A stretch of 40,322 nucleotides of DNA from a virus: IMG/VR virus record IMGVR_UViG_3300031972_003247, positions 1-40,322 of that record. One strand, 5' to 3'. This document shows, one piece after another, positions 1 through 39,949 of the stretch (position 1 is the first letter of the stretch; the number at the start of each line of letters is the position of its first letter). The notes beneath the pieces are model-generated. The model was not told where the DNA came from. It was given only the letters and a program-made list of their open reading frames with translations, and did no database searches. The translations under genes and the position numbers were made by a program.

Positions 1-903
1 CTAAGCGGCAACCCCGTCCACCACATCGAGCAGGTCTTCGGCCTCGATGTGGCCGTAGCGATCCGCCGTGATCTGAACCGAGGCATGGCCCGCCAGCTTC
101 GACACCTTGGCCAGCGGGAACCGCTTCATGGCCTTGGTCAGGGTGGTGTGCCGGGTGGTGTGAAACTTCACGAGCGAGAAGTCATAGCCGCGCGCAGCCA
201 TGTCCTGCCTGATCGCCTTCCACATGCCCCACAGTTCGCCGGGCGTGAACGGGAACAGCGGCCCGTTGCCCGCCTGTAGGCGCAGTTCAGGGAGCATGGC
301 CACGATCTCACCCGTGAGGGGCAGGGTGCGGGCCTTCTTTGATTTGGTGGAGTATCGCTCGAACGTCACGAAGTGCCGGGCCTGACCCTTCACGATCCGC
401 TTCTCGATGTGGCCGGGCCAGACCCGCAGGGCTTCGCCACGGCGACAGGCGGTGGACAGCAGGAACCGGATCAGCGCATCGAACCGGCGCCAGTCGCGGT
501 GGGGTTCGGCCTCGCGCCGGGCGGCGATGACCTCGAACATCGCGACCAGTTCATCGTCGGAAATGATGCGGTCCTGCACGTTGTCGATTTCGAAGGATGG
601 AAAGGTCGGCTTGGCCAGCAGCAGCGGTTGACCCTTGTCGTCCGTCATCTTCGTGGCCAGCAGCAGCGCGTTGGACAGGGTGTCCATGCGGCGCTTCACC
701 GTCGCGGGCGCCAGCGGCTTGCCGCCACGGCCCGTGGCCATGTCGGAGGCCAGCGTCTTAAGCCGGGTGTAGTGCAGCGTGGCGATGTCCTCGGAGCCGA
801 TCAGGCGGCGCAGGATTCGCAGGTTGGATTGGAGCGTGGCGGTCGAACGATGCGCGGACCACTCGGTCAGTTCGCAGACCTTCAAGAGTTCATCGACGGT
901 CAT
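1..903 (-). CDS. Tyrosine recombinase (phage integrase)
   Basis: This 300-aa protein would catalyse site-specific integration and excision of the prophage. An N-terminal core-binding SAM-like region spans about residues 1-100 and the catalytic domain about 112-295. I can see the family residues: Arg154 in TACRRGE, a lysine-rich beta-hairpin at 186-191, His248 and Arg251 in FHTTRH, Gly272-His273 in LAGH, and the nucleophile Tyr283 in DRYGHI. Length and motif spacing are normal for the family. The ATG at 903 overlaps the stop of the upstream winged-helix gene by 4 nt (ATGA), so the two are probably translationally coupled and share the promoter near 1423-1451. Its position at the far end from the phage polymerase fits a prophage boundary. 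Any att site would lie outside the window on the left. Confidence 0.93.
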   Translation of the reverse strand: MTVDELLKVCELTEWSAHRSTATLQSNLRILRRLIGSEDIATLHYTRLKTLASDMATGRGGKPLAPATVKRRMDTLSNALLLATKMTDDKGQPLLLAKPTFPSFEIDNVQDRIISDDELVAMFEVIAARREAEPHRDWRRFDALIRFLLSTACRRGEALRVWPGHIEKRIVKGQARHFVTFERYSTKSKKARTLPLTGEIVAMLPELRLQAGNGPLFPFTPGELWGMWKAIRQDMAARGYDFSLVKFHTTRHTTLTKAMKRFPLAKVSKLAGHASVQITADRYGHIEAEDLLDVVDGVAA

Positions 904-2813: not shown

Positions 2814-3035
2814 TTAGGTGAGCATCCCAATAGCTTGGCCAAGTGCGCCGCCGATCACAGCCCCCATCGCCATGCACGCCAGCATCACCTTGATGAGGGC
2901 ACGTTCGCGAAGAACTTTATCCCGTTCGCGCTGGCGTTCAGCTTTGACCAACATCCATTCGGACTGGCGCCGGTTGAGGATGCGGGCGGCTTGTGCGGCG
3001 GTGACGGGCTTGCCGTCGTAGTGGAACCCCGACAT
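2814..3035 (-). CDS. Small protein with C-terminal membrane helix
   Basis: This 73-aa protein starts MSGFHYDGKPVTAAQAARIL. A basic helical region follows (residues 18-48, rich in Arg and Lys), then one C-terminal glycine-rich hydrophobic segment at about 50-71 (VMLACMAMGAVIGGALG). The start at 3035 overlaps the stop of the HNH endonuclease gene by one base (TGATG), so it is probably translated by coupling. A tail-anchored topology is inferred. No family is recognised. Confidence 0.6.
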   Translation of the reverse strand: MSGFHYDGKPVTAAQAARILNRRQSEWMLVKAERQRERDKVLRERALIKVMLACMAMGAVIGGALGQAIGMLT

Positions 3036-3526
3036 CACGCGACCCTCGTGACGGTCCACGAACCGTCATCGTTCGCGGCCGGGGCGACCCGGAAGTCTTT
3101 TCCGGTGCGGCGGCGAGCGGCCCAGACCGTTGAGATGATGCTCTGGCGACCTACAGGATTGGACTCGAAAGCCTCGCCGACTGAAAGCTGGTGCCACGGA
3201 TAAGAGAAACCGATCCTCTGTCCGAGGACCACGCTGTCGAGCAGGTTTTCGGAGCGCGTGCAGTAGCGCAGGTTCGAAGGCCGGTTGTCGGTTTTGACGC
3301 AGTTGCCGTGCGCCACATCCAGACCTTCCGGTCGCGGTCCATGGAAGGCCAGCGCGACGAGGCTATGAACGGTCTTGCAGATCATCCGACCGCCGATGCG
3401 GACGTGAACGGTCTGGTATCCCAGAGGATGTGGTTGGGGTTTCAGGACGCACCCAAACGGGCTGCGAATTCGTCCGAGGTCTGAAGCCTCATATTTTGAA
3501 CCGGGTATCGGTCGCCATGTCTCCAT
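3035..3526 (-). CDS. NUMOD4/HNH homing-type endonuclease
   Basis: This 163-aa protein starts with a NUMOD4-like motif: METWRPIPGSKYEASDLGRI then RSPFGCVLKP, the W-x-x-I...Y-x-x-S-x-x-G-x-x-R-S pattern. It continues with GYQTVHVRIGG and TVHSLVALAF. The HNH core reads GLDVAHGNCVKTDNRPSNL (residues 69-86), with His73, Asn81 and Asn85 in the usual H-N-N places, then RYCTRSENLLD. Such enzymes cut DNA and often move within phage genomes. Length is normal for free-standing phage HNH enzymes. A terminator-like hairpin with a T-run lies only 12-47 nt ahead of the ATG, so leader regulation is possible. The downstream small gene overlaps its stop. Confidence 0.85.
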   Translation of the reverse strand: METWRPIPGSKYEASDLGRIRSPFGCVLKPQPHPLGYQTVHVRIGGRMICKTVHSLVALAFHGPRPEGLDVAHGNCVKTDNRPSNLRYCTRSENLLDSVVLGQRIGFSYPWHQLSVGEAFESNPVGRQSIISTVWAARRRTGKDFRVAPAANDDGSWTVTRVA

Positions 3527-3537
3527 TGTCAGTCACC

Positions 3538-3573
3538 AAAAAGGCCCGCCGATGGACAAGATCGGCGAGCCTT
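3538..3573 (-). terminator. Intrinsic terminator / leader hairpin before HNH gene
   Basis: On the minus strand a 13-bp stem (3573-3561 with 3553-3541, one G-U pair) encloses a 7-nt loop and is followed by five T residues (3542-3538). It sits directly upstream of the HNH endonuclease start at 3526. It either stops minus-strand transcription from the right or acts as an attenuator in the leader. Its loop and flanks resemble the hairpin at 7286-7316. Confidence 0.7.
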
Positions 3574-3950
3574 CGGTGTGAACTTGGATAGGAGAATCCG
3601 GCTGTTCAAAACATGGCCCGACGCGCGACTTGTCCTTCGTGCGTGCGGATATGTTTTTATTTAGTCGGTGATTGCGCCGGTTATGTCGGCAGTTATGCGG
3701 AGTGCGTCGAAATACGCTTCAATTCCGGCTTCATTTTCCCGTTCGTATTATCCCAACGGTGAAAACGTCGGCGTATTAAACGCTAATGTAAAACTGGTGT
3801 TGTGTATTGCGTGCACAAAACGTCGGCAGAGTTTCACTTTTTTAGTGAAACTGTTCGCATATCGGTCAAGTGGGTCTGCGTTACCGCAAGTAACGTGCTT
3901 GTGGATACCAAAAAAAACCCTTCACCTCGACCGGAGAGTGTGCTTCCATA
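3574..3950. other. AT-rich noncoding region with palindromes and repeats
   Basis: No convincing gene is seen here, and the stretch is visibly more AT-rich than its surroundings. It holds an 8-bp perfect hairpin with a T5 loop (GTTTCACT/AGTGAAAC, 3831-3851) and a 6-bp hairpin (CGTTAC/GTAACG, 3879-3895). It also holds an 11-bp direct repeat AAAACGTCGGC (3762-3772 and 3817-3827) with a related GTCGGCAG near 3685. The clustering suggests a regulatory or replication-initiation region, which is inference only. Confidence 0.4.
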
Positions 3951-4041
3951 GCGTGGTCGCTCGGGCATGGTTCGCCCACGCCAAGCGACCCCCGGCTGCA
4001 ACCGGGGGCCATTTAGACAGTCGTTAGAAAGGAGGTGCCCG

Positions 4042-4122
4042 GTGTTGAGCGAACATCGGGTGGGTGAGGACGCATCGGGGGTTCAGCCGGTGGTCCAATA
4101 TCCCATCCTCAGAATAGGTTGA
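4042..4122 (+). CDS. Possible 26-aa small protein behind an ideal Shine-Dalgarno
   Basis: A GTG at 4042 lies 4 nt after AGAAAGGAGGTG, a near-perfect ribosome site, and opens a 26-codon frame (VLSEHRVGEDASGVQPVVQY then PILRIG) that ends at TGA 4120-4122. The intrinsic terminator starts 4 nt later. A TTG at 4045 is an alternative start. The start codon lies inside a 9-bp stem, so translation might be gated by RNA folding. It could be a short secreted-signal or leader peptide, or no gene at all. Coding character cannot be judged at this length. Confidence 0.3.
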   Translation: MLSEHRVGEDASGVQPVVQYPILRIG

Positions 4123-4125
4123 GGA

Positions 4126-4155
4126 AGGGGCGGTCCTGTCGGGCCGCCCCTTTTC
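4126..4155 (+). terminator. Rho-independent terminator
   Basis: GGGGCGG (4127-4133) pairs with CCGCCCC (4144-4150), extended by an outer A-T pair, and is followed by TTTTCTTT. This ends the structured-RNA or small-frame transcript and isolates it from the SRAP gene 80 bp downstream. Confidence 0.85.
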
Positions 4156-4233
4156 TTTGACCCATTCTCGCGCAGTTGTCCAATATGCCGAGGCTTATGC
4201 GGCACCAAAGGCCGACCAGTCAGGCAGACGACA

Positions 4234-4785
4234 ATGTGCAATCGGTTCAGGAACGACAAGGATTTCGCTGCGTGGGAGCGTGAGTTCACGTCGCGTAACA
4301 TTGTCATCTTCCGAACCAATGATGCGACACCAAATCGGGGTGTCCATGGCGATGTTCGCCCGACTGATCCCGCCTTCGTGGTTCGCCATGACGGCGCAGT
4401 GGAAACGCTGCCATGGGGCTTTCCGGGGCCACGAGGACCGGTGATCAACTACCGATCAGAGGGACGCGACTTCCCGCTGGACCGACGCGCACTGATCCTC
4501 GCCACCGCATTCTACGAGACGACACCGCCCGTCGATCCGAAGCAGAAGCGGAAGGACTGGTGGGTGTTCGAGGCTCGCCATCCCTTCGCTTTGGCGGGCT
4601 ACGTCCGAGACGGTCGGTTCAGTCTGCTGACGGCAGACGCTGGCCCTGATGTGGTGGCGATCCACGACCGGCAACCCGTGGTCGCGGTAGCTGACGACTG
4701 GAATAGCTGGCTGACTGATCCGTCCAGCGACATCCTCAAGCCGTCAGCGGCTAATACCCTGACGGTGCAGCCTCACAAGGGGTGA
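4234..4785 (+). CDS. SRAP (HMCES/YedK-like) abasic-site peptidase
   Basis: This 183-aa protein belongs to the SOS-response-associated peptidase family, which forms a thiazolidine DNA-protein crosslink with abasic sites in single-stranded DNA. The residues needed are present: Met1-Cys2 (the catalytic Cys after Met removal), Asn72 and Arg74 in NYRSEG, Glu95 in TAFYET, and His144 in IHDRQPV. It is slightly shorter than YedK (about 220 aa) but keeps the core. It precedes an orphan methyltransferase by about 180 bp, both on the plus strand. In a phage it may protect replicating DNA, whether its own damaged or base-excised DNA; this role is inferred. Confidence 0.9.
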   Translation: MCNRFRNDKDFAAWEREFTSRNIVIFRTNDATPNRGVHGDVRPTDPAFVVRHDGAVETLPWGFPGPRGPVINYRSEGRDFPLDRRALILATAFYETTPPVDPKQKRKDWWVFEARHPFALAGYVRDGRFSLLTADAGPDVVAIHDRQPVVAVADDWNSWLTDPSSDILKPSAANTLTVQPHKG

Positions 4786-4895: not shown

Positions 4896-4962
4896 ACAGA
4901 TCAGAGAACTGGGGCATCATTTGATTGTGGCCGCTGAGGGTCACGTCAGCCCGGAGGCGCCT

Positions 4963-5883
4963 TTGTCGAACATCTCGTTTTTCCGTCGCAGCGAATGTGC
5001 GGCTAACGACAACAAGGTGGTCCCGCCGCCGACCCCGCCGACCCTGAACCTGCACCTCGGAGACTGTCTCGATGTGCTAAAGGCCGTCGCGGATTCCTCG
5101 GTCCATCTGGTGGCTATCGACCCGCCCTACAACACCACTCGCCTCCAATGGGACAAGGCGATCCCGTTCGAAGAACTGTGGCCGGAACTGCGCCGCATCC
5201 TGACCCCTACCGGCACTGTGGTCATGACGGCGGCGCAGCCCTTCACGTCCATGGCTGTGATGTCGGCGCCTGACCTCTTTAAGTTCGCCATGGTCTGGAA
5301 AAAGAGCCGGGCGACCGGACATCTGCTGTCGAAGAACCGCCCGATGATGCAGCACGAGGATGTCCTTGTGTTCTCCAAGGGCGTGACCGCTCACCCGGAC
5401 AGGTCCAGCCGCCGCATGACCTACAATCCGCAGGGCATGGTGGAACTGGAAACGCCGATCCGCACGCGCAACGGTCGCCAGTCTGGTCTCTACAACAACA
5501 ACGGCCAGATGGGGGGGGCCAACGGTTTCCATCACTTCGACGGGAAGGGGTATCAGACCTTCAATGGGGGCCGCGTTCGCTACAAGGACGAGGTGCGCGT
5601 GCAGACCCACACCGGTTTTCCCACTTCCATTCTGTCGTTCGATAGCGTCCACATGCCGGTCCACTCGACGCAGAAGCCCGTTGAACTTTTCGACTACCTG
5701 ATCCGCACGTTCAGCAACCCCGGCGATGTGGTCATGGACCCGACCATGGGGTCGGGAACCACGGGCGTGGCTGCTCTGGCTGCTGGGCGCCACTTCATCG
5801 GTGTCGAACGTGATCCCGTCTATTTCCAGATCGCCAGTGGCCGCATCAACGGGGCATTCGAGCGCGGAAAGGAAGCGGCATGA
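4963..5883 (+). CDS. Orphan beta-class DNA methyltransferase
   Basis: This is an S-adenosylmethionine-dependent amino-methyltransferase (N6-adenine or N4-cytosine). Catalytic motif IV, DPPYN, comes first (residues 53-57 from the chosen start). The SAM-binding motif DPTMGSGTTG comes near the C-terminus (259-268). That order, with the target-recognition region between, defines the beta class, which also contains CcrM and M.HinfI. I chose TTG at 4963, which has GGAGG 5 nt upstream; an in-frame TTG at 4921 lacks one. No restriction endonuclease is adjacent, so it is probably an orphan enzyme protecting phage DNA or modulating expression. Its stop overlaps the next small gene by ATGA. It lacks the CcrM C-terminal extension, so GANTC specificity should not be assumed. 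Confidence 0.9.
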   Translation: MSNISFFRRSECAANDNKVVPPPTPPTLNLHLGDCLDVLKAVADSSVHLVAIDPPYNTTRLQWDKAIPFEELWPELRRILTPTGTVVMTAAQPFTSMAVMSAPDLFKFAMVWKKSRATGHLLSKNRPMMQHEDVLVFSKGVTAHPDRSSRRMTYNPQGMVELETPIRTRNGRQSGLYNNNGQMGGANGFHHFDGKGYQTFNGGRVRYKDEVRVQTHTGFPTSILSFDSVHMPVHSTQKPVELFDYLIRTFSNPGDVVMDPTMGSGTTGVAALAAGRHFIGVERDPVYFQIASGRINGAFERGKEAA

Positions 5884-7467: not shown

Positions 7468-8538
7468 TCAGGAGCGTAGGAGGTTGCCGACATCAGCCAT
7501 AAAGGCTCCGGCTGTGCAGTCGAGCGAACGGCTCTTGAATGCGCGAAGCTCTGCCGAGTTTGTCCCGTTGAGCATATTGGTAATCTCACCCGAGGATGCG
7601 TCTACGTCGAATGGGGACATGCCAAGCGTCGTGAACCAGATTTTTGAGGCGCGCGACCTTGTGTCTGGGCGCAGTAGGTCGAGGTTCTGTTTGAGAAAGC
7701 TAAACCCGAGAAAGACGATCTGTTCAGCGTCTTGAACCGCTTTTCGGATCGAAGCCAAGAGTTCTTCATCTTCAACGGTTTCCGTGAAGGTTCGTAGGCG
7801 CGACCCAGCTTCAATCACTTCGCTAAAGTGTAGGTTTTTCCAGTGCCCGAAGGGTAGGGCGCCGCCCGTTTCTTTCTGCCAAGGAAGGTGCCCGATCTTC
7901 CCGTATGGGTGAATGATTTTGAGGTGGCTCATTACATCAGCAGCGGCGGCATCGTCAAAGCCGCACAATTCGCGGACGGCGTGGTAAAGGTAGTGTTCGA
8001 TCACCCGGTCGTAGTTGAACGTGATGATCGTGATGTTCTTGAAGATATCCGTCGCTCTGTCGAGTGATACGTCTTCTTGGAGGCGGAACATCAATTCCTG
8101 AAGCCAATGCGGCTTCCGAGCGAGTTTATTGCTTATGGAGGGAAGGTCGATCCTGTCGCTGTCGAGGATGCTGTCCTGTTCGGCAGCGAGGATGGCTCTC
8201 GCTATAGCAATTTTGCCGATTCCGACCTTTGCCCCGTCGTCTCGGTGCAGGTGAAGATATCGGTCGATTGAGGAAGCATGGCGGATGCCCGGTGCCATGG
8301 CATTTGCAGCCAAATCCCACCGACGTTCGCCGCGCCGCTGGCCAGCCTGAACTATCGCTGACAGCAGAACTTCATCAGAGCCGCGACTGGAGATCACTAC
8401 AAAATCACGGTTTTGCTCCCGCCGACCGATGACGGATAGCTGATCGGCGATCTGGTCCTTCAAACCGTCGCCAATCGGAAGGCGGTATTCCGCGCTACAT
8501 CCGGCGCCGATGACGAAGGTGGTCGGTCGATTGAACAT
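7468..8538 (-). CDS. SIR2-like domain protein, candidate defence effector
   Basis: This 356-aa protein has the signature of SIR2-like (SIR2_2-type) proteins, many of which are NAD+-consuming abortive-infection effectors. Motifs in order are FVIGAGCS (residues 8-15, nucleotide-binding loop), SSIDRYL (89-95), ITFNYD (172-177), the catalytic-type His210 in IHPYG, and FLGFSF (276-281). No other domain is evident. Cytoplasmic location is expected because there is no signal peptide. It begins 10 nt after the lipoprotein stop, so the two form an operon. In a prophage it would most likely kill or arrest cells infected by competing phages. NADase activity and the trigger are inferred, not shown. Confidence 0.85.
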   Translation of the reverse strand: MFNRPTTFVIGAGCSAEYRLPIGDGLKDQIADQLSVIGRREQNRDFVVISSRGSDEVLLSAIVQAGQRRGERRWDLAANAMAPGIRHASSIDRYLHLHRDDGAKVGIGKIAIARAILAAEQDSILDSDRIDLPSISNKLARKPHWLQELMFRLQEDVSLDRATDIFKNITIITFNYDRVIEHYLYHAVRELCGFDDAAAADVMSHLKIIHPYGKIGHLPWQKETGGALPFGHWKNLHFSEVIEAGSRLRTFTETVEDEELLASIRKAVQDAEQIVFLGFSFLKQNLDLLRPDTRSRASKIWFTTLGMSPFDVDASSGEITNMLNGTNSAELRAFKSRSLDCTAGAFMADVGNLLRS

Positions 8539-9076: not shown

Positions 9077-9319
9077 TCAGTCGCGGGTGAACAAATCGCG
9101 CTGATCTGGATCAGCTTGTGACACCCGCTCTGGCTCCAAGATCGTGAAGAGATCAGGCGGACGGCTGGCCACGCCGAACGCACATCGTTGAGCGGCTTCG
9201 CCATCGGCGAGGCAGACATAGCCCCACGCCAGCCCGTCCCGTTCACCCTCGCTGATCAGGGCGCGAGCCTCGGGAGATAAGGGCGCCCAATTAGGCGCCC
9301 TCTTGATCCGCCGGGCCAT
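9077..9319 (-). CDS. Small protein coupled to ArdC-like gene
   Basis: This 80-aa protein starts MARRIKRAPNWAPLSPEARA with a basic N-terminus, followed by an acidic, probably helical region and a short C-terminal DLFTRD. The ATG at 9319 overlaps the ArdC-like stop by one base (TGATG), so it is translated with that gene. No family is recognised. It may be an accessory to the antirestriction protein. Confidence 0.6.
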   Translation of the reverse strand: MARRIKRAPNWAPLSPEARALISEGERDGLAWGYVCLADGEAAQRCAFGVASRPPDLFTILEPERVSQADPDQRDLFTRD

Positions 9320-10845
9320 CACGCGGCCCACGCTTCGTCATGGCCCCAGACGTGGCGGTAATCCTCGCGCAGTTCCCTTTCGATGGCGCGGATCAGCATG
9401 TCAGGCGAGATCGGATTCATGTTGTCAGATGCATCCCACGACGGCGCCGCCACGTCGGGAAAGAACCCGGCTTCCCATGCCGCATAGGCCGCATCGTCCA
9501 GCGCCATCCCGCCTTCGCGGATCAGCTTGCGACGAAAGGGCTTCTCCTGATGCCAGCTATCAGCGTCGATTGAGCGGAGTTCGCCCCCGGTATCGACCAC
9601 GCCACGCAAGGCCAGAAACTCGCACAAGGTGAGATCAGCGCGCCCCTTTCTCGCACGCGGCGGGAGATCGTCAGGGAAGGGCACCACGGAGCCGTCAAAG
9701 GGTTCCGGCTCCATGGGCGCGGGTTCCGGCTCTTGCGGCTCCACGGCCCGGAAATCGGCCCTCTTGGCCAGTTCCTTTTCGAGCCTTTCGACTTCAAGAG
9801 CGAGGGCATGGGCGGCATTGCGCCAATCGGCGCGAGCGCGGCTGTCACAGGCCCGGCGATAGGCGGCGAGGGCGATAGCCGCGCCCCCGCCATTAGGGCC
9901 ATCGTCGTCGCCCGGATCGTTAGCCGTGGCGGGTTCCTTCGCCGCTACAGGCTCCGACACCACGGCCACGGGCGCAACCGGCCGCACCACGGCGCCAGCC
10001 TCCGAACCGGCCAGTTCAAACAGATGATCACAGGCGGCTTGAGCCTTGGACGCGGCGGTAAAGATCGCGCGCTTGTCCGCTTTCAGGACATCAAGCCAAG
10101 AGGCCAGATAGGAGGCGTGGTCAGGACGAGGATCGGCCGCGATACCCAGACGCGCCATGGCGAAGGCGGCACCAAGTTCCGCCACCAATTCCTCAACCGC
10201 ATAGGCCCGATCTCCGAACCGCTTTCCGAACGTGCGATCAAGCCGCGACGTGTGGCCGGTCCAATGCGTGAGTTCATGGGCCAGCGTCCCGTAATAGCTT
10301 GGCGCGTCCACGAACGCTGCGAAGGGCGGCATTTGAACAAGGTCATGGGAAGGCGAGAAGAACGCACGGTTGCCGCCGTGCTGGATCGTCGCGCCTGTGG
10401 CCTTGGCCCATGCATCGGCCGATGCAATGCGTTCGGGCGAGTTCACGTTGATGGGTTCGGCCGTGGCCAGATGTTCCGGCAAGCCGTCAATCTGATCGGC
10501 GTTGAAAACCGAATAGGTTTTGAGGAAGGGAATCTCTCGATCATCCTCGCCTTCGCCGGGCGTGAACTTGCCGTAGTAAACGATGGCCGTGGCCTTCGAT
10601 CCTTTTTTGACCGATGCGCCTAAAGCCTTCGCTTGATTGAACGTGAGCCAGTGACGGCCGGTGAACCCGTTATCCTCGGCCGCGCCCCACAAGAGCAGGA
10701 CGTTGACCCCTCTATAGGGTTCGCCATTGGACCGCATGGGCATGACCGGCATTCCACCGGACCACGGCTTGTTCCAAGGGCGGACACCGGCTTTAAGCTG
10801 GCGAACAATGGAGTCGGTGACGGTTTGGTAGGTGTCGCGTTTCAT
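9319..10845 (-). CDS. ArdC-like antirestriction protein with zincin metallopeptidase domain
   Basis: This 508-aa protein has an ArdC N-terminal ssDNA-binding-type domain (residues 1-125; note RDTYQTVTDSIVRQLKAG, PWNKPW, PYRGVN). A zincin-like metallopeptidase domain follows (about 150-280) with HELTHWTGH (190-198) and a downstream EELVAELGAAF (219-229) that should supply the third zinc ligand. A Pro/Glu-rich linker leads to a C-terminal domain (about 420-508) of unknown role. The ATG at 10845 is chosen from the conserved MKRDTYQ start. ArdC-like proteins protect incoming DNA from host restriction. The gene carries the palindromic TTGTCTTAACGCAA site 11 nt before its start. Confidence 0.9.
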   Translation of the reverse strand: MKRDTYQTVTDSIVRQLKAGVRPWNKPWSGGMPVMPMRSNGEPYRGVNVLLLWGAAEDNGFTGRHWLTFNQAKALGASVKKGSKATAIVYYGKFTPGEGEDDREIPFLKTYSVFNADQIDGLPEHLATAEPINVNSPERIASADAWAKATGATIQHGGNRAFFSPSHDLVQMPPFAAFVDAPSYYGTLAHELTHWTGHTSRLDRTFGKRFGDRAYAVEELVAELGAAFAMARLGIAADPRPDHASYLASWLDVLKADKRAIFTAASKAQAACDHLFELAGSEAGAVVRPVAPVAVVSEPVAAKEPATANDPGDDDGPNGGGAAIALAAYRRACDSRARADWRNAAHALALEVERLEKELAKRADFRAVEPQEPEPAPMEPEPFDGSVVPFPDDLPPRARKGRADLTLCEFLALRGVVDTGGELRSIDADSWHQEKPFRRKLIREGGMALDDAAYAAWEAGFFPDVAAPSWDASDNMNPISPDMLIRAIERELREDYRHVWGHDEAWAA

Positions 10846-10856
10846 GGGCCTATCCG

Positions 10857-10870
10857 TTGCGTTAAGACAA
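10857..10870. promoter_or_regulatory. Palindromic site copy 1 (TTGTCTTAACGCAA)
   Basis: This is a 14-bp element with dyad symmetry TTGnnTTAAnnCAA, 11 nt upstream of the ArdC-like ATG. It is identical to two further copies at 11070 and 11135. It is probably an operator for a dimeric regulator that controls this antirestriction operon. Confidence 0.65.
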
Positions 10871-10885
10871 AGATTGGGGAAGGGT

Positions 10886-11059
10886 TCAGGCGAACGAGAA
10901 GAGCCAGCCGTTGATCGAGAGGCGTTCGCCCGTGTCGTCACAGATGGCTTCAAACTGGTCATCAAGATCGGCATCCGCCTTGACCCAGACAGTCAGGTCA
11001 TACGGGCCGCCGGTTAGATCAATGAGGCGGTCAAAGCCGGAAGGGCTGTCGGTGATCAT
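10886..11059 (-). CDS. 57-aa small acidic protein
   Basis: This short gene encodes 57 residues beginning MITDSPSGFDRLIDLTGGPY and ending with GWLFSFA. It is acidic and probably a small alpha/beta fold. It lies 41 nt ahead of the ArdC-like gene on the same strand and carries the same 14-bp palindromic element 10 nt before its ATG. That repetition supports it as a real, co-regulated gene. No family is recognised. An anti-restriction or anti-defence role is suggested only by company and size. Confidence 0.6.
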   Translation of the reverse strand: MITDSPSGFDRLIDLTGGPYDLTVWVKADADLDDQFEAICDDTGERLSINGWLFSFA

Positions 11060-11069
11060 CGGGAAGCCT

Positions 11070-11083
11070 TTGCGTTAAGACAA
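11070..11083. promoter_or_regulatory. Palindromic site copy 2
   Basis: This is an identical TTGTCTTAACGCAA element, 10 nt upstream of the 57-aa gene start at 11059. Confidence 0.65.
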
Positions 11084-11134
11084 GCAATGACCGTTGCCTA
11101 ACCGATGTCGATTCGAACCGTCAACCCCTAATCG

Positions 11135-11148
11135 TTGCGTTAAGACAA
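11135..11148. promoter_or_regulatory. Palindromic site copy 3
   Basis: This third identical TTGTCTTAACGCAA element lies 51 bp from copy 2. Downstream on the minus strand GGGG and a TTG open only an 8-codon frame (MTVRIDIG), so it may serve a leader peptide or simply be a distal operator. Confidence 0.6.
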
Positions 11149-12485: not shown

Positions 12486-14219
12486 TCACCGTCTCGACCG
12501 TCCCTGTCCACGGTTTGGACGGTTCCCGCTATTCAATAGGCCCCCTACGATGGTGCCCGCGAAGAAGCGTTCCTCGAACTCCCGGTTCAGCTTCTCGATG
12601 TGCTGGGCTTCGGACTTCTGGGTGTCCACGGCCATGTGCGCTTTCCAATATTCTGCGGCTTGGGCCAGCACGTCGATCCGGTCGTCGTGCTTCAAGGCTC
12701 CGCGCTGGGCGGTGATGCGGGTCATCTGATAGAGGCCGCGATAGCTGGCATCGGCTTTCAAATCCTCGCGGATCATCGCGATGTCCATCACCAGTCGGTG
12801 TTGCTTCATGATCGGTTCGAGTGATCCGATGATGCGCTTTTCCTTCTGTCCGCTGACCTTCACGCCTTCCAGTCGGCAGGGATGCTTGCGAGCGAGGACG
12901 GGCGCGAGAAGCTGACGGAACATGCCGTCACCCCAGTTGTCCTCGACCACCACGACATTGACCTTTTCGTCGCGTGCGATCTCGGCCAGCTTTTCGAGCG
13001 TGGCTTCCGAAGTGCCGTTGGAGAAGCCTCCCCATTTTCTGACGAAGATGCGGCCATGCAGGAACTTGGTGACGACGTAGGCTGTCTCGTCGGCGCCGGA
13101 ACCTGCGGGGTCGATGTGGAGCGCGGCTCCGGTGAAGGGCGCCCAATGCTCCGATGTCTTGAAGGGTCGATAGAACCTGTCGCCCGTGAAGCCCACGGCC
13201 GGGAGATCGCCGATCTGATATTCGGGCGAGGATGCGTAGGCGATGGAGACGGGCGCCTGTGCCGCGTCCACGTCCATGACGATCAGGTCGGAGAGTTTGA
13301 GCGGGTATCGCTCGGCATCGGACATGGCCGTGTCGAGCATCATGTGAAGCATGAACTCGGCTGACGTGCCGTCGAGTTCGGTGGCTTGCAGCTTGTGTTC
13401 GGTGAAGCGGTCGGGATCGACCGATGCGCCTCCGAGGATCGAGAAGCCCTTCGGTTCGCAGAGGGTCGGGTCTTTGGCGATGTCGCCAGTGATCATCGGC
13501 GCGAGCGTGGAGCCGTAGTTCGCGATCTTGTTCGGGAGGGGATAGCGGGCTGGCCAGACACGCACGTCGTAGCCGCGCTTGGACAGGTCGTTGTAGATCG
13601 ACTCTGCGGTCTGCGGGGTTCCGAGGTAGATGATCTCTGCGTCGGCGGTCGTCTTGAGAATCTTGCCGAACTCGGAGAGGCCCCGGCGCAGCTTGTCGCG
13701 CTGGTCCTCGGTGCCCGAGTTGTTCTGCTGCTCCACGTCATCAGGGATCAGGATGTCGGCGCGGTTGCCCGCGAGGCGCCCGCCGATGCCGAGGCAGGAC
13801 ACGGACGGCTGACGGTCGGGGAGGGCGGGTCCGACATCGAACGCCAGCGTGGACATCCGCTGACCCAGCTTGGGTCGCAGTTCGGCCCAGAGATCATCAC
13901 CGGCAGGGTGTTCGATGATCTGCTTGATGAGGTTGGCGTTGCCGATGGCACCCGCTTCGCCAGACGCGACGATCAGGACTTTCTTCTGAGGGTCGTTCCA
14001 GAGTTTCCAGACGGCGTAGGCGCACGTCAGGAAGGACTTGCCGACTCCGCGATAGGCTTCGACCACGCGGCGGTTGGGGCCGTGGGCGAGGTAGTCTGCG
14101 ATGTCGAGTTGGACGCGGGTGGGCGCCGGGAGATCGAGGACGTGCTTCCAGACGTGGCGCACGAAGATGTCGAAGCGCGACCGGAGAAGATCGCGGTAGG
14201 TCAGGTTTTCAGGGTTCAA
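12486..14219 (-). CDS. terL: Terminase large subunit (T7 gp19-like)
   Basis: This 577-aa ATPase-nuclease packages phage DNA into proheads. The ATPase domain has Walker A AYRGVGKS (55-62), matching the T7 RGIGKS form, and Walker B ADILIPDDVE (154-163). The coupling region is IIYLGTPQ (196-203). The nuclease domain shows Asp370 in HIDPAGSG, VVVVEDNWGDGMF (422-434) and HDDRID (511-516). Length is close to T7 gp19 (586 aa). It starts at a TTG (14219). No clear ribosome site is seen, and a short ATG-TGA mini-frame overlaps the start. It is the last late gene, as in T7. Confidence 0.95.
   Translation of the reverse strand: MNPENLTYRDLLRSRFDIFVRHVWKHVLDLPAPTRVQLDIADYLAHGPNRRVVEAYRGVGKSFLTCAYAVWKLWNDPQKKVLIVASGEAGAIGNANLIKQIIEHPAGDDLWAELRPKLGQRMSTLAFDVGPALPDRQPSVSCLGIGGRLAGNRADILIPDDVEQQNNSGTEDQRDKLRRGLSEFGKILKTTADAEIIYLGTPQTAESIYNDLSKRGYDVRVWPARYPLPNKIANYGSTLAPMITGDIAKDPTLCEPKGFSILGGASVDPDRFTEHKLQATELDGTSAEFMLHMMLDTAMSDAERYPLKLSDLIVMDVDAAQAPVSIAYASSPEYQIGDLPAVGFTGDRFYRPFKTSEHWAPFTGAALHIDPAGSGADETAYVVTKFLHGRIFVRKWGGFSNGTSEATLEKLAEIARDEKVNVVVVEDNWGDGMFRQLLAPVLARKHPCRLEGVKVSGQKEKRIIGSLEPIMKQHRLVMDIAMIREDLKADASYRGLYQMTRITAQRGALKHDDRIDVLAQAAEYWKAHMAVDTQKSEAQHIEKLNREFEERFFAGTIVGGLLNSGNRPNRGQGRSRR
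12488..12523. repeat. ACCGTC hairpin element, copy 3
   Basis: ACCGTCTCGACCGT (12488-12501) pairs with ACGGTTTGGACGGT (12510-12523) around an 8-nt loop, as at 11756. It overlaps the last codons of the convergent large terminase gene, so both transcripts would contain it. Confidence 0.65.
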
Positions 14220-32515: not shown

Positions 32516-34027
32516 TTATTCCATCGCGGCGTTTACGGCCGCTTCGGCGACAGGACCGGCTGCGGCCCCGACCATCTGTTGGCTGGCTTGCGCCATCATC
32601 GCCTGTTGCTGTTCTTCGGCGAGTTGCTCTTCCGATTTCAGGAGGCTGTTCAGCGCGGTCACGCCATGCTCCACGCCCAGACGGGTGAGGAACGCGGTGG
32701 CGTTGACGTGTGCGGCGAACACCTGCGGGCCGAGAATCTGAACGCCATCGGACGCGAACGTGCGAAGGCGGTTCACCTCGGCTGCACGGCCCAGAGCCGC
32801 CATGCCGGTGACGACCTTCGGGGTGATGTCCGAAGGCAGATCAGGAATGAGGTTCTGTTCAGCCGCGAGATACAGGTAGCGGTTGGCGATGGGCAGTTGG
32901 AGTTCGGCGGACAGCAGCGAATAGGTGCCGCCCAGCGTCGTTTCCAATTCCTCGGATTGAGAGCGGATTTCCTCGGCCGTGACCCGTTCCGCATGACGGA
33001 AGTTCTGGGTCATGAACGCCTTGGCGACACGCTGTTCAATGCGTTCGGCCGTCGAGGCGACAACGGCGAAGTCCTGCGACTTCTGTAGCTGCACCGAACT
33101 GATCTCGTCGGCATTGCCGTAGAGGTAATCGCCGGATCGAGCGGCGGCCAGCTTGTTCACGTCGAGCGTGGAGTTCGGCGACACCAGATTGACGATGCGC
33201 GATGCAGCCGCCGAGAACTGGACGATGGCTTGCGACAGGTCTTCCAGCGACAGGAGGTCGCCGATGTATTCGGTGACGTGGCTGCGGCCATAGTCGGAGC
33301 CGGGCACGGCCAGCCAGCGGAGGGGAACCCAACCGCTCTTGTCGGCGGGAGCCTTGCCCTCGGAACCGGGGACGCGCTTGCCGTTGATTTCCTGATAGTG
33401 CTCGACGTTATCGCCGACGCGCTCAACGACCGTGAAGACATCGATGCGTTGTTCGTTGTCATGGCTTGGCGCGGGCAGGGCGACTGCGGCGCGCACTTCA
33501 TCCGACAGCGAAGACGGATAGACTTGTTCGCGCACGATGATGGTCAGGAACTCGCCAGAGGCGTTCCGCTTGACCACATACTGATCCAGTCGAAACAGGC
33601 GCGGCGGGGTCTTGGGCGGAAGCCACAGGAGCGAGTTGCCAGCGATGATCAGGTGGCGCAGGGCCTCGGCCATGACCGGCCGAACCCGCTTGTCTTCCAT
33701 GAGGGCGGAAGCGGATTGCGAGAATTGGGCGAGCGTTGCGTCAGCAGCGTTCTTTTCCTCGCCCAGCGCGGCGGCGACCTGTGCGTCCAGTTCCAATCGG
33801 AAGAAGGGAACATTGGGGGAGAACAGGGCCAGCAGGAGCCGGGAGGAAAGAGATCGGACACCATCGGCGCCGACTGACTGGTAGGGTTGGGACGGAACGT
33901 AGTGTTCGTTCTGGCCGTCGTGCGGGATCAAACCCGGAATCGTGAGGCGGGAGGCTTCACGCGCCGCTTCCAACGCTGTGGAGCGAGCGGAGGACAGCGC
34001 GTTGTAGCGCGCTGCTGCTGTGTTCAT
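32516..34027 (-). CDS. Portal / head-tail connector (T7 gp8-like)
   Basis: This 503-aa protein forms the dodecameric portal. It begins MNTAAARYNALSSARSTALE. It shows the podovirus portal pattern: GVRSLSSRLLLALFSPNVPFF near the N-terminus, HLIIAGNSLLWLP in the middle, NLVSPNSTLDVNKLAA, and RVTAEEIRSQSEELETTLGG, then YSLLSAELQLPI late. T7 gp8 is 536 aa. It directly follows the small gp7.3-like gene with no gap. Confidence 0.94.
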   Translation of the reverse strand: MNTAAARYNALSSARSTALEAAREASRLTIPGLIPHDGQNEHYVPSQPYQSVGADGVRSLSSRLLLALFSPNVPFFRLELDAQVAAALGEEKNAADATLAQFSQSASALMEDKRVRPVMAEALRHLIIAGNSLLWLPPKTPPRLFRLDQYVVKRNASGEFLTIIVREQVYPSSLSDEVRAAVALPAPSHDNEQRIDVFTVVERVGDNVEHYQEINGKRVPGSEGKAPADKSGWVPLRWLAVPGSDYGRSHVTEYIGDLLSLEDLSQAIVQFSAAASRIVNLVSPNSTLDVNKLAAARSGDYLYGNADEISSVQLQKSQDFAVVASTAERIEQRVAKAFMTQNFRHAERVTAEEIRSQSEELETTLGGTYSLLSAELQLPIANRYLYLAAEQNLIPDLPSDITPKVVTGMAALGRAAEVNRLRTFASDGVQILGPQVFAAHVNATAFLTRLGVEHGVTALNSLLKSEEQLAEEQQQAMMAQASQQMVGAAAGPVAEAAVNAAME

Positions 34028-34357
34028 TTAGCGGTGGTTCACGTTGATGTAGAGGTCATTGAGGCCCCGTCCCCCGCCGCCGCCGGTGATGGGCGGTGAA
34101 GTCCCTCCACCGGGTCGTGGGGTGAGCGGTGGACGTGTGGGTGTGGGAGTCAGCGGTGGGGTGACGGGATCGGGTGTGGTCGGCATCTGAACCCCGGCGC
34201 CCAGACGGTCGATACGCAGCGAGCGCACACCGCCCTGACGGGCTTTGATGATGGGGTTCAGTCCGTCCAAATACGGGTTGCGAAGGATCGCAGGTTCTTT
34301 CTCGGTGGCGGACCCTTGGGTGGGCGCGCTCACGATTTTCGGCTTGGCTGTGCACAC
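34028..34357 (-). CDS. Small virion protein (gp7.3-like position)
   Basis: The 109-aa protein begins MCTAKPKIVSAPTQ and has ILRNPYLDGLNPIIKARQGG then VRSLRID, a recurring pattern in small podovirus virion or tail-assembly proteins encoded just before the portal. The second half is a Pro/Thr/Gly-rich disordered stretch (PPLTPTPTRPPLTP), ending in NDLYINVNHR. It abuts the portal start. Homology to T7 gp7.3 is inferred from place and composition rather than clear similarity. Confidence 0.7.
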   Translation of the reverse strand: MCTAKPKIVSAPTQGSATEKEPAILRNPYLDGLNPIIKARQGGVRSLRIDRLGAGVQMPTTPDPVTPPLTPTPTRPPLTPRPGGGTSPPITGGGGGRGLNDLYINVNHR

Positions 34358-34369
34358 GGCGCGGGCCTC

Positions 34370-34585
34370 CTATCGGATAGGCGCGTCGGGACGCGACATG
34401 GATTGTTCAAAGTGGGCGCGGGCGGACTTCACCACCTCGCGTTTTCCCGCCTCGAACATCACTTGCTCGATGGTCTGGCTCGGCTTGACGGACGGCTCCG
34501 GGTAGAGGCGATCCAAGTAGTCGAGGAAGTCAGGGATGTTGGTGGGAAAGGGTTCGCGCTCGTGCCCGGTTGGGGCACGGCTCAT
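34370..34585 (-). CDS. 71-aa small protein upstream of portal module
   Basis: This is a helical protein with a conserved-looking centre (NIPDFLDYLDRLYPEPSVKP) and a basic C-terminal half (EAGKREVVKSARAHFEQ). The ATG overlaps the holin-like gene stop by 4 nt. It is coded in line with the late operon, but no T7 counterpart is recognised. It may be an assembly factor or a small virion component. Confidence 0.6.
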   Translation of the reverse strand: MSRAPTGHEREPFPTNIPDFLDYLDRLYPEPSVKPSQTIEQVMFEAGKREVVKSARAHFEQSMSRPDAPIR

Positions 34586-34767
34586 TCAGGTGCGCTGTCC
34601 TTGGTGAGGACACCGATCAGACCGGCGACGAACAGGCCACCAGACAGCATTGCTTCCAGCATTTCGGGGCTGATGGTGATCCCGATCAGGGAAGCGAAGG
34701 CGACGACACCGAGCCAAGTGGAGCGTTCGCGCAGACGGGGCGCGATGAAGGCGAGAATGGGTTTCAT
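34582..34767 (-). CDS. Holin-like two-TM small protein
   Basis: The 61-aa product has a basic N-terminus (FIAPRLRERS) and two hydrophobic segments (about 18-33 and 40-54) separated by a short turn (SPEMLEAM). It ends in a charged tail. This size and topology are typical of small class II-type phage holins, which permeabilise the inner membrane. It overlaps the following gene by ATGA. Together with the XhlA-like protein at 14552 it would give two lysis-related candidates. The assignment rests on topology only. Confidence 0.6.
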   Translation of the reverse strand: MKPILAFIAPRLRERSTWLGVVAFASLIGITISPEMLEAMLSGGLFVAGLIGVLTKDSAPE

Positions 34768-34815
34768 GGGAATGCTTTCGAAAATGGGCGCGGCGAACGC
34801 GCGATAAATCTGGGT

Positions 34816-35034
34816 ATGAAAAAGGAACTCCGACCCGAGGGCCGCTGGGCCGACCTGATCGAAAACCTGCTGGCTGAACCGCGAGCGGAGAAAAAATCCG
34901 TCAGGTTGGCCACGCTGAAACCCGAGCGGGTGTGCATGGTCTGTGACGAGATTCTGACCGGCAAGCAGAGGTCCGTTTGCTCAAAACAATGCGCGGACCA
35001 ACTCGCGAAGTTCAGGCGGGCGGGCGGCGCTTAG
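34816..35034 (+). CDS. Small zinc-ribbon-like protein on the opposite strand
   Basis: The 72-aa frame starts MKKELRPEGRWADLIENLLA and has two cysteine pairs, CMVC and CSKQC, separated by 12 residues, a plausible zinc knuckle. A basic C-terminus (KFRRAGGA) fits DNA or RNA binding. It is the only plus-strand gene candidate inside the late module, and it overlaps the end of the minus-strand 58-aa gene by 23 nt. No strong ribosome site is visible. The cysteine arrangement is the main evidence that it is real. Confidence 0.45.
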   Translation: MKKELRPEGRWADLIENLLAEPRAEKKSVRLATLKPERVCMVCDEILTGKQRSVCSKQCADQLAKFRRAGGA

Positions 35035-35188
35035 GCGCGGTCCACGCGCGGGCCTTCTTGAGGCCGACGTTCTCTTCGGACGGGAGCAAGCCAGCGGCTT
35101 CCAAAGCCTCACGCATGGCGGTCTTGGCTTCGATGACTTCGCCACGCGGATCGCTCGCGTATCGAGCCTTGCGTTGATCGCGGGTCAT
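35012..35188 (-). CDS. 58-aa basic small protein
   Basis: This short gene begins MTRDQRKARYASDPRGEVIE and ends with ARAWTAPKRRPPA. It is highly basic, probably two helices, and may bind nucleic acid. The ATG overlaps the stop of the preceding 96-aa gene by 4 nt, which is the best evidence it is translated. It is part of the small-gene set between the polymerase and portal. No family is recognised. Confidence 0.55.
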   Translation of the reverse strand: MTRDQRKARYASDPRGEVIEAKTAMREALEAAGLLPSEENVGLKKARAWTAPKRRPPA

Positions 35189-35475
35189 CCGTTGAACCTC
35201 CGAAGTTCACCTTCGGCGTAGTCGCGCAGGGCTTGGATGTGGATCGTGTGCGGGCCTTCCGCGTCGGACATCATGCGCTTGGCGCGTTCGACTTCTTCGT
35301 GGGGGTCCAGCTTGCACGCCTCGGCTGCGACGGTCGCTGCGAGGAAGATCGCGCGGACCTGATCGGCCGGGTCTGTGTTCTGGATTCTGCTGATTACGGC
35401 ATAGGCCGGTTCGCGGAGCGTCGAGACAGTCGATGCGGTGCGAACGCGGTCGCCGATGTTGAGAGAGTCAAACAT
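35185..35475 (-). CDS. 96-aa protein downstream of RNA polymerase
   Basis: The product begins MFDSLNIGDRVRTASTVSTL, suggesting a short beta-barrel-like start (IGDRVRTA), and continues as a helical acidic domain (VRAIFLAATVAAEACKLDPH, then EEVERAKRMMSD). CGGAG precedes the ATG. It is the first gene after the polymerase and overlaps the next by ATGA. No family is recognised. Confidence 0.6.
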   Translation of the reverse strand: MFDSLNIGDRVRTASTVSTLREPAYAVISRIQNTDPADQVRAIFLAATVAAEACKLDPHEEVERAKRMMSDAEGPHTIHIQALRDYAEGELRRFNG

Positions 35476-35513
35476 GGTTCTCCGAGGTTTCGTTCTTCAA
35501 TAGGCCCCCGGCT

Positions 35514-38841: not shown

Positions 38842-39057
38842 CTAGCCACAGCACGAGGTGCCCTGCTGGATCGGTGGGCATGGAGTGTCCGCGTAAGAAC
38901 AGAACACACAGCAATCGCCGGGCAGCGGTCGCAACTTGGTCCCACAGCCAGCGCAATCGTAGAACCAGATGCAAGCGTCTGTCGGCATGGTTTCGGTAGC
39001 CACATGCCCGCAGTCAGGGCAGGTGAGGGTGGATTGTAGCAGGATGCCGTCGCTCAT
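38842..39057 (-). CDS. GDCCVxC-domain protein of mercury locus
   Basis: The 71-aa protein has the hallmark GDCCVFC (residues 47-53) and SYADTPCPP, preceded by CPDCGH (13-18) and a second pair in YDCAGCGTKL (34-42). It ends with a Cys pair. This family of small cysteine-rich proteins accompanies merT in many mercury operons, and some members use selenocysteine. Metal binding is expected from the thiols, but the precise role is unknown. It starts within the merT stop (ATGA). Confidence 0.85.
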   Translation of the reverse strand: MSDGILLQSTLTCPDCGHVATETMPTDACIWFYDCAGCGTKLRPLPGDCCVFCSYADTPCPPIQQGTSCCG

Positions 39058-39437
39058 CGCGCGGCCATCAAGACGCTCATCGCCCAAGGCTCAATGAAAG
39101 GCCCCCAAACCAGAGCGAGGCCAACCAGCACGGAAGCCAGAACAAGCAGCCAAAAAGCCGTCCGCGACGGTCGAGCGCAACTCACGTCAGTTCGGCACTT
39201 TCGAACCCGCCGCCAATGCAAGAGCCAGCCCACCATCAACACGAGCGCCGCAATGGCCGTCAGCCATGTTCGCGCTCCTGCGATGACGGCGGCTCCTGCG
39301 AAGGAAACTCCGGCAAGGGAGAGAGCGAGAGGCAACACGCAGCAAGCCGCCCAAGCGAAGACCGAGGCAAACCCTCCGACAGCAGCCGACGTGCTGACGA
39401 CAACATCGGGATTAGGGGGAGGCTTGTGGGTCATCAT
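39054..39437 (-). CDS. merT: Mercuric ion transporter MerT
   Basis: This inner-membrane protein takes Hg(II) from the periplasm to the cytoplasm. Three hydrophobic segments are visible (about 20-48, 50-75, 95-120). The first carries the vicinal Cys32-Cys33 in WAACCVLPL, and the loop after the second carries Cys81 and Cys87 (RRVRKCRTDVSCARP), as in classical MerT. It is 127 aa, the usual size being about 116. GGAG precedes two adjacent ATGs (39437, 39434). It lies divergent from merR across a MerR-type promoter. No merP or merA is within the window. Confidence 0.92.
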   Translation of the reverse strand: MMTHKPPPNPDVVVSTSAAVGGFASVFAWAACCVLPLALSLAGVSFAGAAVIAGARTWLTAIAALVLMVGWLLHWRRVRKCRTDVSCARPSRTAFWLLVLASVLVGLALVWGPFIEPWAMSVLMAAR

Positions 39438-39461
39438 GGGAAACTCCGTCCAATGTGATAG

Positions 39462-39492
39462 AGGCTACAACCCGTAGCCACTACGGGATCAA
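39462..39492 (-). promoter_or_regulatory. MerR-regulated merT promoter/operator
   Basis: On the minus strand TTGATC (39492-39487) and TAGCCT (39467-39462) are 19 bp apart, the overlong spacer characteristic of MerR-activated promoters. Within it is the dyad CCCGTAG-TGG-CTACGGG (39487-39471), the expected MerR operator. The layout is read directly; regulation is by family knowledge. Confidence 0.85.
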
Positions 39493-39511
39493 GTGCGTGA
39501 AGCGACAAAGG

Positions 39512-39949
39512 ATGACGATTGGAAGGTTGGCCCGCGAAGCTAGGGTGAACCTCGAAACCGTGCGCTACTATGAGCGTATCGGCGTCATGCCCGTGCCTGA
39601 CCGAACCGAGGGCGGACACCGTAGCTACGCTCCTGAACACGCTGAGCGTCTGAAGTTCATTCGCAGGTCTCGGGAGTTGGGATTCGGCATCGAAACCATC
39701 CGACGTTTGATTTCCTTGGGCGAGGCCGAGAGCCAATCGTGCTGTGAGGTGAGGGATATGGCGAAGGATCAGATCGCCAGCATCGACGCCAAGATCAGCG
39801 ATCTGACACGGCTCAGGCGGGTCCTTCAGCAGGCCGTAGTCGACTGTGGAGAGGGCACCGAAGTTCGTTGCCCCGTCATCAAAGAGTTGGGATCGAACGG
39901 AAGGCTAGCTGGTTCGACTGAGAGTGGTCGGCCACAGGGGATGAAATAA
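39512..39949 (+). CDS. merR: Mercury-responsive transcriptional regulator MerR
   Basis: This 145-aa MerR-family dimer has an N-terminal winged helix (MTIGRLAREARVNLETVRYY then ERIG) followed by the GGHRSYA wing and a long dimerisation helix. The Hg(II) ligands are present: Cys77/Cys78, Cys112 and Cys120 (Tn501 MerR Cys82, Cys117 and Cys126). The ATG at 39512 matches the family start; an upstream frame from 39455 would begin inside the operator. It is divergent from merT and controls the operator between them. Confidence 0.93.
   Translation: MTIGRLAREARVNLETVRYYERIGVMPVPDRTEGGHRSYAPEHAERLKFIRRSRELGFGIETIRRLISLGEAESQSCCEVRDMAKDQIASIDAKISDLTRLRRVLQQAVVDCGEGTEVRCPVIKELGSNGRLAGSTESGRPQGMK

Follow-up and report, generated by a model that had tools for sequence, protein, structure and literature searches.

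A super-Shine-Dalgarno mini-ORF abutting a terminator ahead of SRAP and methylase genes in a phage genome: a plausible translation-coupled terminator or mini-mRNA

A virus record, IMGVR_UViG_3300031972_003247, carries a plus-strand element in which an exceptionally long Shine-Dalgarno (SD) sequence, a start codon held in a predicted hairpin, a 26-codon open reading frame (ORF) and an intrinsic terminator follow one another ahead of genes for a SRAP-domain protein and a DNA methylase. Judged from its sequence, the element is a plausible translation-coupled terminator or super-SD mini-mRNA. The reading that we favor, tentatively and at somewhat less than an even chance, is that ribosome loading on the mini-ORF, and not the peptide, is the output, and that it would suppress the abutting terminator so that transcription enters the SRAP and methylase genes. 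If this attenuator reading is true, a prophage switches its SRAP and DNA-methylase genes through ribosome loading on a throw-away ORF, and the extreme SD serves to open a locked start codon. Such a switch would be notable in hosts with an SD on only a minority of their genes; for Caulobacter crescentus, PMC4117421 gives 75.4% of genes without one.

Genomic context and probable host

The window, by which we mean the whole stretch of DNA analyzed, covers positions 1 to 40,322 of this virus record of 40,322 bases and includes the following genes.

1-903, minus strand: tyrosine integrase (Pfam)
3035-3526, minus strand: HNH_3/NUMOD4 endonuclease (Pfam), the left neighbor of the element
4234-4785, plus strand: SRAP-domain protein (Pfam PF02586), the first gene past the terminator
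4921-5883, plus strand: N6/N4 DNA methylase (Pfam PF01555), next after SRAP
12486-14219, minus strand: large terminase-like ORF, with relatives in five plasmid records annotated terL
32516-34027, minus strand: head-tail connector
35514-37943, minus strand: T7-like single-subunit RNA polymerase

Among named phages, Caulobacter phage S2B is the closest, with an RNA polymerase and a connector that are each 56% identical and an integrase that is 44% identical to those of the window. Relatives of the polymerase also occur in prophages of Caulobacter sp. D5 and Brevundimonas sp. ASV9 (59-60%) and, more distantly, in prophages of Novosphingobium and another Sphingomonadaceae genome (49-54%). Because the polymerase, connector and integrase are akin to those of Caulobacter and Brevundimonas phages and prophages, the host is probably a member of the Caulobacterales. 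To the left of the element, a strong minus-strand terminator (3574-3540, −23.2 kcal/mol) stops just short of the HNH endonuclease start codon at 3526.

Structure of the element and its mini-ORF

The features of the element and its upstream stretch are these.

3830-3852, no strand assigned: operator-like palindrome AGTTTCACT-N5-AGTGAAACT with perfect 9-nt arms, in an A+T-richer upstream stretch
3923-3928, plus strand: CACCTC, complement of GAGGTG 4032-4037 and a candidate SD-masking partner (predicted pairing, weak)
3955-3990, plus strand: hairpin 1 (−20.1 kcal/mol, z = −3.67)
3989-4008, plus strand: hairpin 2, CCCCCGG/CCGGGGG (−15.0 kcal/mol, z = −2.52)
4024-4037, plus strand: super-Shine-Dalgarno, an exact 14-nt complement of 16S rRNA
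4037-4061, plus strand: start-codon hairpin with arms 4037-4046/4052-4061 (−15.7 kcal/mol, z = −4.45)
4042-4122, plus strand: 26-codon ORF with GTG start and TGA stop at 4120-4122, peptide VLSEHRVGEDASGVQPVVQYPILRIG
4106-4125, plus strand: hairpin before the terminator, competing at the first stem bases (−7.6 kcal/mol for 4104-4125)
4123-4156, plus strand: intrinsic terminator with stem 4123-4136/4141-4154 and a T-rich tail (−27.1 kcal/mol for 4110-4156)

The stretch 3955-4155 has a predicted fold of −102.2 kcal/mol (z = −4.54), and none of 200 shuffles folded as well. Control 200-nt segments, taken at 100 places on both strands with 3955 excluded and scored against a noisy 16 shuffles each, had a mean z of −0.66 (sd 1.28), with 2 of 200 at z <= −4.5; by this modeling, the folding is unusual, not unique. 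The first-pass annotation of this DNA had described several stems ending in a strong terminator, which the fold and the terminator itself bear out, the latter (4123-4154) reaching −26.6 kcal/mol and ranking second among eight terminator-like sites scanned in the window. No Rfam family reached its gathering score anywhere in the window.

Strand preference is visible in the start-codon hairpin, which keeps only about half of its folding energy on the minus strand (−7.9 kcal/mol for 4038-4061 vs −15.7 on the plus), and a plus-strand RNA is therefore favored. A minus-strand RNA, whose start hairpin folds more weakly, is less likely yet conceivable, given z-scores of −2.5 for both 3912-4012 and 3900-4037. 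An antisense RNA was also considered, and for it the minus strand offers only a weak terminator-like site at 4055-4036, of six pairs, that is absent from a stricter scan. On the plus strand, the predicted accessibility of the SD varies with the 5′ end of the RNA, being mostly open in 4020-4155 and partly paired in longer RNAs.

The SD core AGGAGG ends at 4035 and the GTG begins at 4042, an optimal spacing of 6 nt. Another GTG, at 4035-4037, overlaps the SD and is too close to be a start, leaving GTG 4042-4044 as the plausible one; the hairpin encloses it together with the in-frame TTG at 4045. Earlier statements that the GTG sits inside a hairpin and that a 26-aa peptide is encoded hold for this start codon and this ORF. 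The codon usage of the mini-ORF is poor: 99.8% of 26-codon pieces from 18 phage ORFs outscore it, as do 22% of shuffled stop-free pieces, and its codons 24-25, AGA-ATA, are rare here (0.23% and 0.06% of 8866 phage codons). For this reason, the peptide is unlikely to be an established phage protein. A type I toxin mRNA was considered and set aside; the peptide has a GRAVY of 0.09 and, by reading, no membrane-length hydrophobic run. A repeat, GTKGTCCAATATSCC, occurs on the plus strand within the mini-ORF (4090-4104) and again just past the terminator (4175-4189); at up to three mismatches the window holds four matches in total vs 1.8 expected, which is not unusual.

A 14-nt complement of the 16S rRNA end

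The 14-nt sequence TTAGAAAGGAGGTG has a single exact copy in the window, at 4024-4037 on the plus strand, and at up to three mismatches one further place, where 1.58 are expected. It is perfectly complementary to the 3′ region of alphaproteobacterial 16S rRNA, over 12 nt of the mature tail plus two more: AGAAAGGAGGTG complements CACCUCCUUUCU, which we take to be the mature 16S end, and the remaining two bases pair with the precursor. The 12-nt match to the 16S tail noted in the first-pass annotation is thereby confirmed and, counting the precursor, extended to 14 nt. A 22-nt 16S-end pattern containing the reverse complement of TTAGAAAGGAGGTG is present exactly in 34 of 131 Brevundimonas genomes, the identity of the site as a 16S end being confirmed with Rfam for locus L051 only. 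From base composition, the 12-mer would be expected about 0.003-0.004 times per window, counting both strands. The anti-SD pairing energy of the element is −22.1 kcal/mol; the best among 38 other start sites in the window, which are mechanically called ORF starts picked by hand and not curated genes, is −13.6.

At L051, the match continues from the 16S end into the spacer (1501-1523, 22 of 23 nt), and mimicry of 16S and spacer was considered. We hold the part beyond the SD for chance, because about 0.5 such matches would be expected in 299 Caulobacteraceae genomes, of which one had it (E 0.0017 for one genome), and because 30 other spacers, from Brevundimonas, differ at this stretch.

Viral contigs indicate what such a sequence usually does. 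TTAGAAAGGAGGTG-N4-DTG occurs in them at 75 places (58 with ATG, 12 with TTG and 5 with GTG), in a scan that took only 14-mers with a start codon at N4 spacing and kept contig redundancy. Among the 71 closed ORFs behind these sites, 56 are at least 60 aa long, 8 have 20-59 aa and 7 fewer than 20. In these contigs, then, a perfect 14-nt SD beside a start codon can work as an ordinary ribosome-binding site and in most cases does. That such sites normally serve translation is shown by the preponderance of ATG and by the length of the ORFs behind the 14-mer, and this argues against a pure decoy.

Terminator, downstream genes and candidate promoters

The stop codon TGA 4120-4122 and the terminator stem, which begins at 4123, are separated by 0 nt. 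SRAP starts 79 nt past the terminator on the same strand and is followed by the co-oriented methylase; its own SD is weak (−5.0 kcal/mol). No sigma-70-like promoter scored within 3500-4260, neither upstream of the element nor in the interval between terminator and SRAP. By eye, a weak possible SRAP promoter, TTGACC-18-CAATAT, lies near 4157, and the palindrome at 3830-3852 is a possible control site of a promoter.

Farther along the window, CGTTGCGTTAAGACAA has three near-identical plus-strand copies (10855-10870, 11068-11083 and 11133-11148, with 0-1 mismatch), where 0.15 copies would be expected at up to three mismatches; these may be operators or promoters. In intergenic DNA, phage S2B repeats a motif of its own, resembling (C/G)TTGCGTCA(A/G)T. 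A phage-polymerase promoter at the element was considered and rejected: such repeats exist, yet CGTTGCGTTAAGACAA has no copy near the element.

Resemblance to CC2171

The best Rfam match of the stretch is to CC2171 (RF01867), which scores 22.7 bits over 4019-4150 (E 0.0038 for 231 nt), far short of the 75 that the family requires. Copies of this family over the cut-off occur in 146 of 249 Caulobacteraceae genomes. Its members typically start with TTCAACA-N3-GAAAGGAGGTGATCCAGTGTCTCATTG, which is a super-SD with GTG or ATG, and their start codon lies 15-16 nt from the first G of GAAAGG, as in the phage, where the distance from 4027 to 4042 is 15. A search of 61 Brevundimonas genomes for GAAAGGAGGTGN{3,6}DTG returned 42 places in 38 genomes, compared with 3 for a reversed-pattern control; 28 of the 30 loci inspected were CC2171, and the other two were ORFs of 74 and 190 aa. 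By these counts, the combination of super-SD and start is rare in Brevundimonas-like hosts and typical of CC2171.

CC2171, filed in Rfam as an sRNA, is probably a translated mini-ORF. All 59 distinct copies collected, under a requirement for UCUCAU after the start, contain ORFs of 20-24 codons ending in TAA, TAG or TGA, and four of the 59 read GUGAUCUCA, with the frame shifted and the length retained. The copy in virus contig L276 has a 33-codon ORF; the phage ORF has 26 codons. Between close pairs, which are not independent of one another, codon changes are mostly non-synonymous (157 vs 31 synonymous, and 246 vs 114). The peptides commonly begin with SHC and frequently end with E(V/A)(R/S)A, and the middle is not conserved. 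In these sequences, ORF, length and SD are conserved better than the peptide. In the accessible parts of the literature naming CC2171 we found no function; the RNA-related items were a Mesorhizobium sRNA survey and Rfam 15, which mentions a revised structure for the family. PMC4117421 reports two earlier predicted non-coding RNAs as translated.

With CC2171, the phage RNA shares the super-SD GAAAGGAGGUG (4027-4037), the start spacing, a short ORF and a G+C-rich terminator. There are also differences. After the start, 28 of 30 host sites inspected have UCUCAU, whereas the phage reads GUGUUGAGCGAA; the phage peptide does not start with SHC, and no ACGACGAUGGAGG-type stretch precedes its terminator; the stop abuts the terminator, whereas in locus L185 57 nt lie between; and in the phage, hairpins are predicted both upstream and over the start codon. 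Strong hairpins lie ahead of its GAAAGGAGGUG from 3955 on, so that a position near the RNA start, as the super-SD has in CC2171, would depend on the 5′ end of the phage RNA. CC2171 matches of 20-30 bits are numerous in Caulobacteraceae genomes, and of seven low-scoring loci examined, six (29-40 bits) lack the super-SD and are terminator-like. One locus in Caulobacter sp. D5 (L240) is a true divergent copy that scores only 29.1 bits, and a low score is therefore compatible with distant kinship. With 22.7 vs 75 bits, we do not call the phage RNA a CC2171 member.

Recombinases stand beside CC2171 in two virus contigs. In L277 (5450-9856), the copy lies about 150 nt from a serine-recombinase-like ORF (by eye), and this contig also encodes a T7-like RNA polymerase 62% identical to that of the window; in L276 (3868-5320), a weak, below cut-off Phage_integrase ORF lies less than 200 nt away. 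CC2171 may mark an integration hotspot. Because of these two contigs, we considered the phage element as an attachment site and rejected it: the integrase is 3 kb away, and the flanks of 4024-4037 are, by eye, unlike those of CC2171.

Search for relatives

Searches of phages found no match to the element (blastn) or to the peptide (tblastn), and blastn against plasmids returned six records with SRAP pieces only. Of 23 virus records whose RNA polymerase is related, five gave short matches at E <= 10, all 14-21 nt long and put down to chance. In viral contigs, exact patterns of the element had no hit, and hairpin 2 alone occurs in two places whose surroundings differ (by eye). In bacterial genomes, positions 3900-4130 gave matches at E <= 0.01, each shorter than 45 nt, in 6 of 131 Brevundimonas and 9 of 299 Caulobacteraceae genomes, two sets that overlap, and positions 3900-4165 matched 41 of 396 Sphingomonadales genomes at E <= 1e-4, where all 42 matches listed are confined to 4117-4163, which is the terminator hairpin with its immediate borders. 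Per genome, the best six (Brevundimonas), two (Caulobacteraceae) and two (Sphingomonadales) candidates were scored, a depth at which weak homologues could escape. With a covariance model built from the single sequence, the window was the only hit among 16 sources, and 199 genomes gave none, an empty result that is uninformative for such a search. Apart from matches that were terminator-like or very short, the sequences searched, which may lack the window's closest records, contained no relative of the phage RNA.

SRAP is matched in 95 of 249 genomes at E <= 1e-20. Six of these SRAP loci (L162-L167) were examined, and AAGGAGG is missing from the 400 nt ahead of each. The succession of SD, mini-ORF and terminator is absent from 13 related phage or prophage stretches; within the window it recurs once, at an internal GTG in the capsid gene's frame (30570, minus strand) with a terminator behind it.

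Proposed mechanism

In the reading that we favor, a plus-strand leader RNA would begin somewhere in 3640-3955, and its 12-14 nt SD would capture a 30S subunit, enabling the stable hairpin around GTG 4042 to be opened. The 26 codons would then be translated, and the ribosome would halt at the UGA abutting the terminator stem, where it would hinder folding of the terminator and let the polymerase read into SRAP and the methylase. Should loading fail, the start hairpin would stay shut and the RNA would end near 4156. The hairpins at 4061-4106 and 4106-4125 could pause the polymerase. An SD this extreme would serve to offset the −15.7 kcal/mol that lock the start codon; a strong SD is said, by de Smit and van Duin, to compensate for start-site hairpins.

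Several features argue for ribosome-mediated suppression of the terminator. The predicted SD pairing of −22.1 kcal/mol stands against −15.7 for the start hairpin, the spacing is optimal, and the stop-terminator gap is 0 nt, so that a ribosome can reach the terminator. The same 14-mer beside a start codon is apparently a normal ribosome-binding site in viral contigs; the codons are un-gene-like; and the co-oriented SRAP gene, with the methylase behind it, has a weak SD and no scored promoter between itself and the terminator. There is precedent in Escherichia coli, where, according to PMC4824070, a terminator a few bp past a translated stop codon is almost fully repressed, moving the stop from 28 to 5 bp from the terminator lowers its efficiency from about 90% to <10%, and the repression is abolished once translation is uncoupled. 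The same text adds that terminators in the first ~100 bp of a coding region are repressed only if the polymerase pauses, ribosomes otherwise rarely catching up with it there, and that in amino-acid attenuators leader and terminator stand >20 bp apart (PMC4824070); by that analogy, the mini-ORF, at only 81 nt, would fall inside the escape zone, which counts against our reading. So do the lack of a homologue and of a scored upstream promoter in the searches above, the possible own promoter of SRAP, the six SRAP loci without AAGGAGG and the dependence of SD accessibility on where the RNA starts.

Among known systems, a pyrBI-type attenuator likewise has a short leader ORF that reaches an intrinsic terminator before the controlled genes. 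In the pyrBI layout the leader stop codon lies beyond the terminator, whereas the phage stop precedes it; here, moreover, there is no known effector, coupling is only predicted, and the downstream genes are SRAP and a methylase. In both designs, RNA polymerase closely trailed by a ribosome would escape termination; for pyrBI, such coupling is described in PMC4824070. The strong 30S docking site beside a stable hairpin covering the start codon is also reminiscent of mRNAs whose hairpin-locked start site opens after 30S pre-binding, by standby or SD-compensated initiation; tisB, one such case, differs in relying on a standby site that is distant and single-stranded and on additional structure (PMC7708055).

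Alternative explanations

Without read-through, the same features would describe a self-contained CC2171-like short mRNA or dual-function small RNA that always ends at 4156 and has the peptide or the ribosome-bound RNA as its product. This close rival is possible, if on the doubtful side. CC2171 is the best Rfam match, host copies share the arrangement, which among inspected Brevundimonas loci is CC2171-typical, and L240 demonstrates how low a divergent copy can score; yet the phage falls far below the cut-off in a range where matches are many and most low scorers examined are terminator-like, and it has neither UCUCAU, the SHC start nor the ACGACGAUGGAGG-type stretch, while its stop abuts the terminator. 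Distinctly unlikely, in our view, is that the phage has its own functional analogue of host CC2171, in which ribosome engagement and not the peptide is what is selected, the translation capacity of the host is sensed or diverted, and the outcome is coupled to SRAP and the methylase. Somewhat less improbable, and still unlikely, is leftover or incidental intergenic sequence, in which a real terminator follows hairpins that arose by chance in G+C-rich DNA and a ribosome-binding site that is a relic with no present function. The searches found no conservation and no promoter, and 2 of 200 controls fold as well relative to shuffles; against this, a 12-nt 16S complement, a start-codon hairpin and a stop at the terminator are hard to obtain together by chance, given the expectation for the 12-mer alone.

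The first-pass annotation had offered three options, a ribosome-binding decoy, a gated small-peptide mRNA and an unknown regulatory RNA, and these are partly supported. The gated mRNA fits best of the three, with its optimal spacing, start codon in a stable hairpin and ORF ending at the terminator; an unknown regulatory RNA stays conceivable. Two features absent from that annotation are the stop codon's contact with the terminator and the presence of SRAP and methylase genes farther along the same strand. The decoy, an untranslated RNA tying up 30S subunits via the 16S tail, would explain the exceptional pairing strength, the hairpin over the start codon and the codons that are not gene-like, but it is weakened to the point of being very unlikely: the start codon is optimally spaced, the same 14-mer mostly precedes long ORFs in viral contigs, a single RNA species would be expected to titrate ribosomes only at very high abundance, and no reported case of the kind was recognized in the accessible parts of the best literature matches. 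The least probable reading, and a highly improbable one, is a riboswitch-like leader that senses a ligand or protein, the SD core GAGGTG 4032-4037 being masked by CACCTC 3923-3928 across hairpins 1 and 2. This pairing would close the junction of two strong hairpins and has a predicted probability of 0.50-0.65 in two partial RNAs (3912-4037 and 3912-4060); it consists of only six pairs, drops to 0.08-0.12 in 3905-4062 and four longer RNAs, and is accompanied by no Rfam family at threshold and no conservation in the sets searched.

Other features of the record

An ORF at 7468-8538 (minus strand) is SIR2-like/AbiH-like, both Pfam matches being below cut-off, and 9319-10974 (minus strand) encodes an ArdC-type anti-restriction protein (Pfam); with the nearby methylase and SRAP, these perhaps form a defense and counter-defense cluster. 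A gap of only 1.5 kb (34027-35514) separates the RNA polymerase from the connector, a position occupied in phage S2B by DNA polymerase and primase-helicase genes; neither was recognized in a reading of the window's ORF list. At the right end (39054-39949), a MerR-family regulator (Pfam) stands with a divergent small membrane protein, MerT-like by eye, and this end is perhaps host or cargo DNA.
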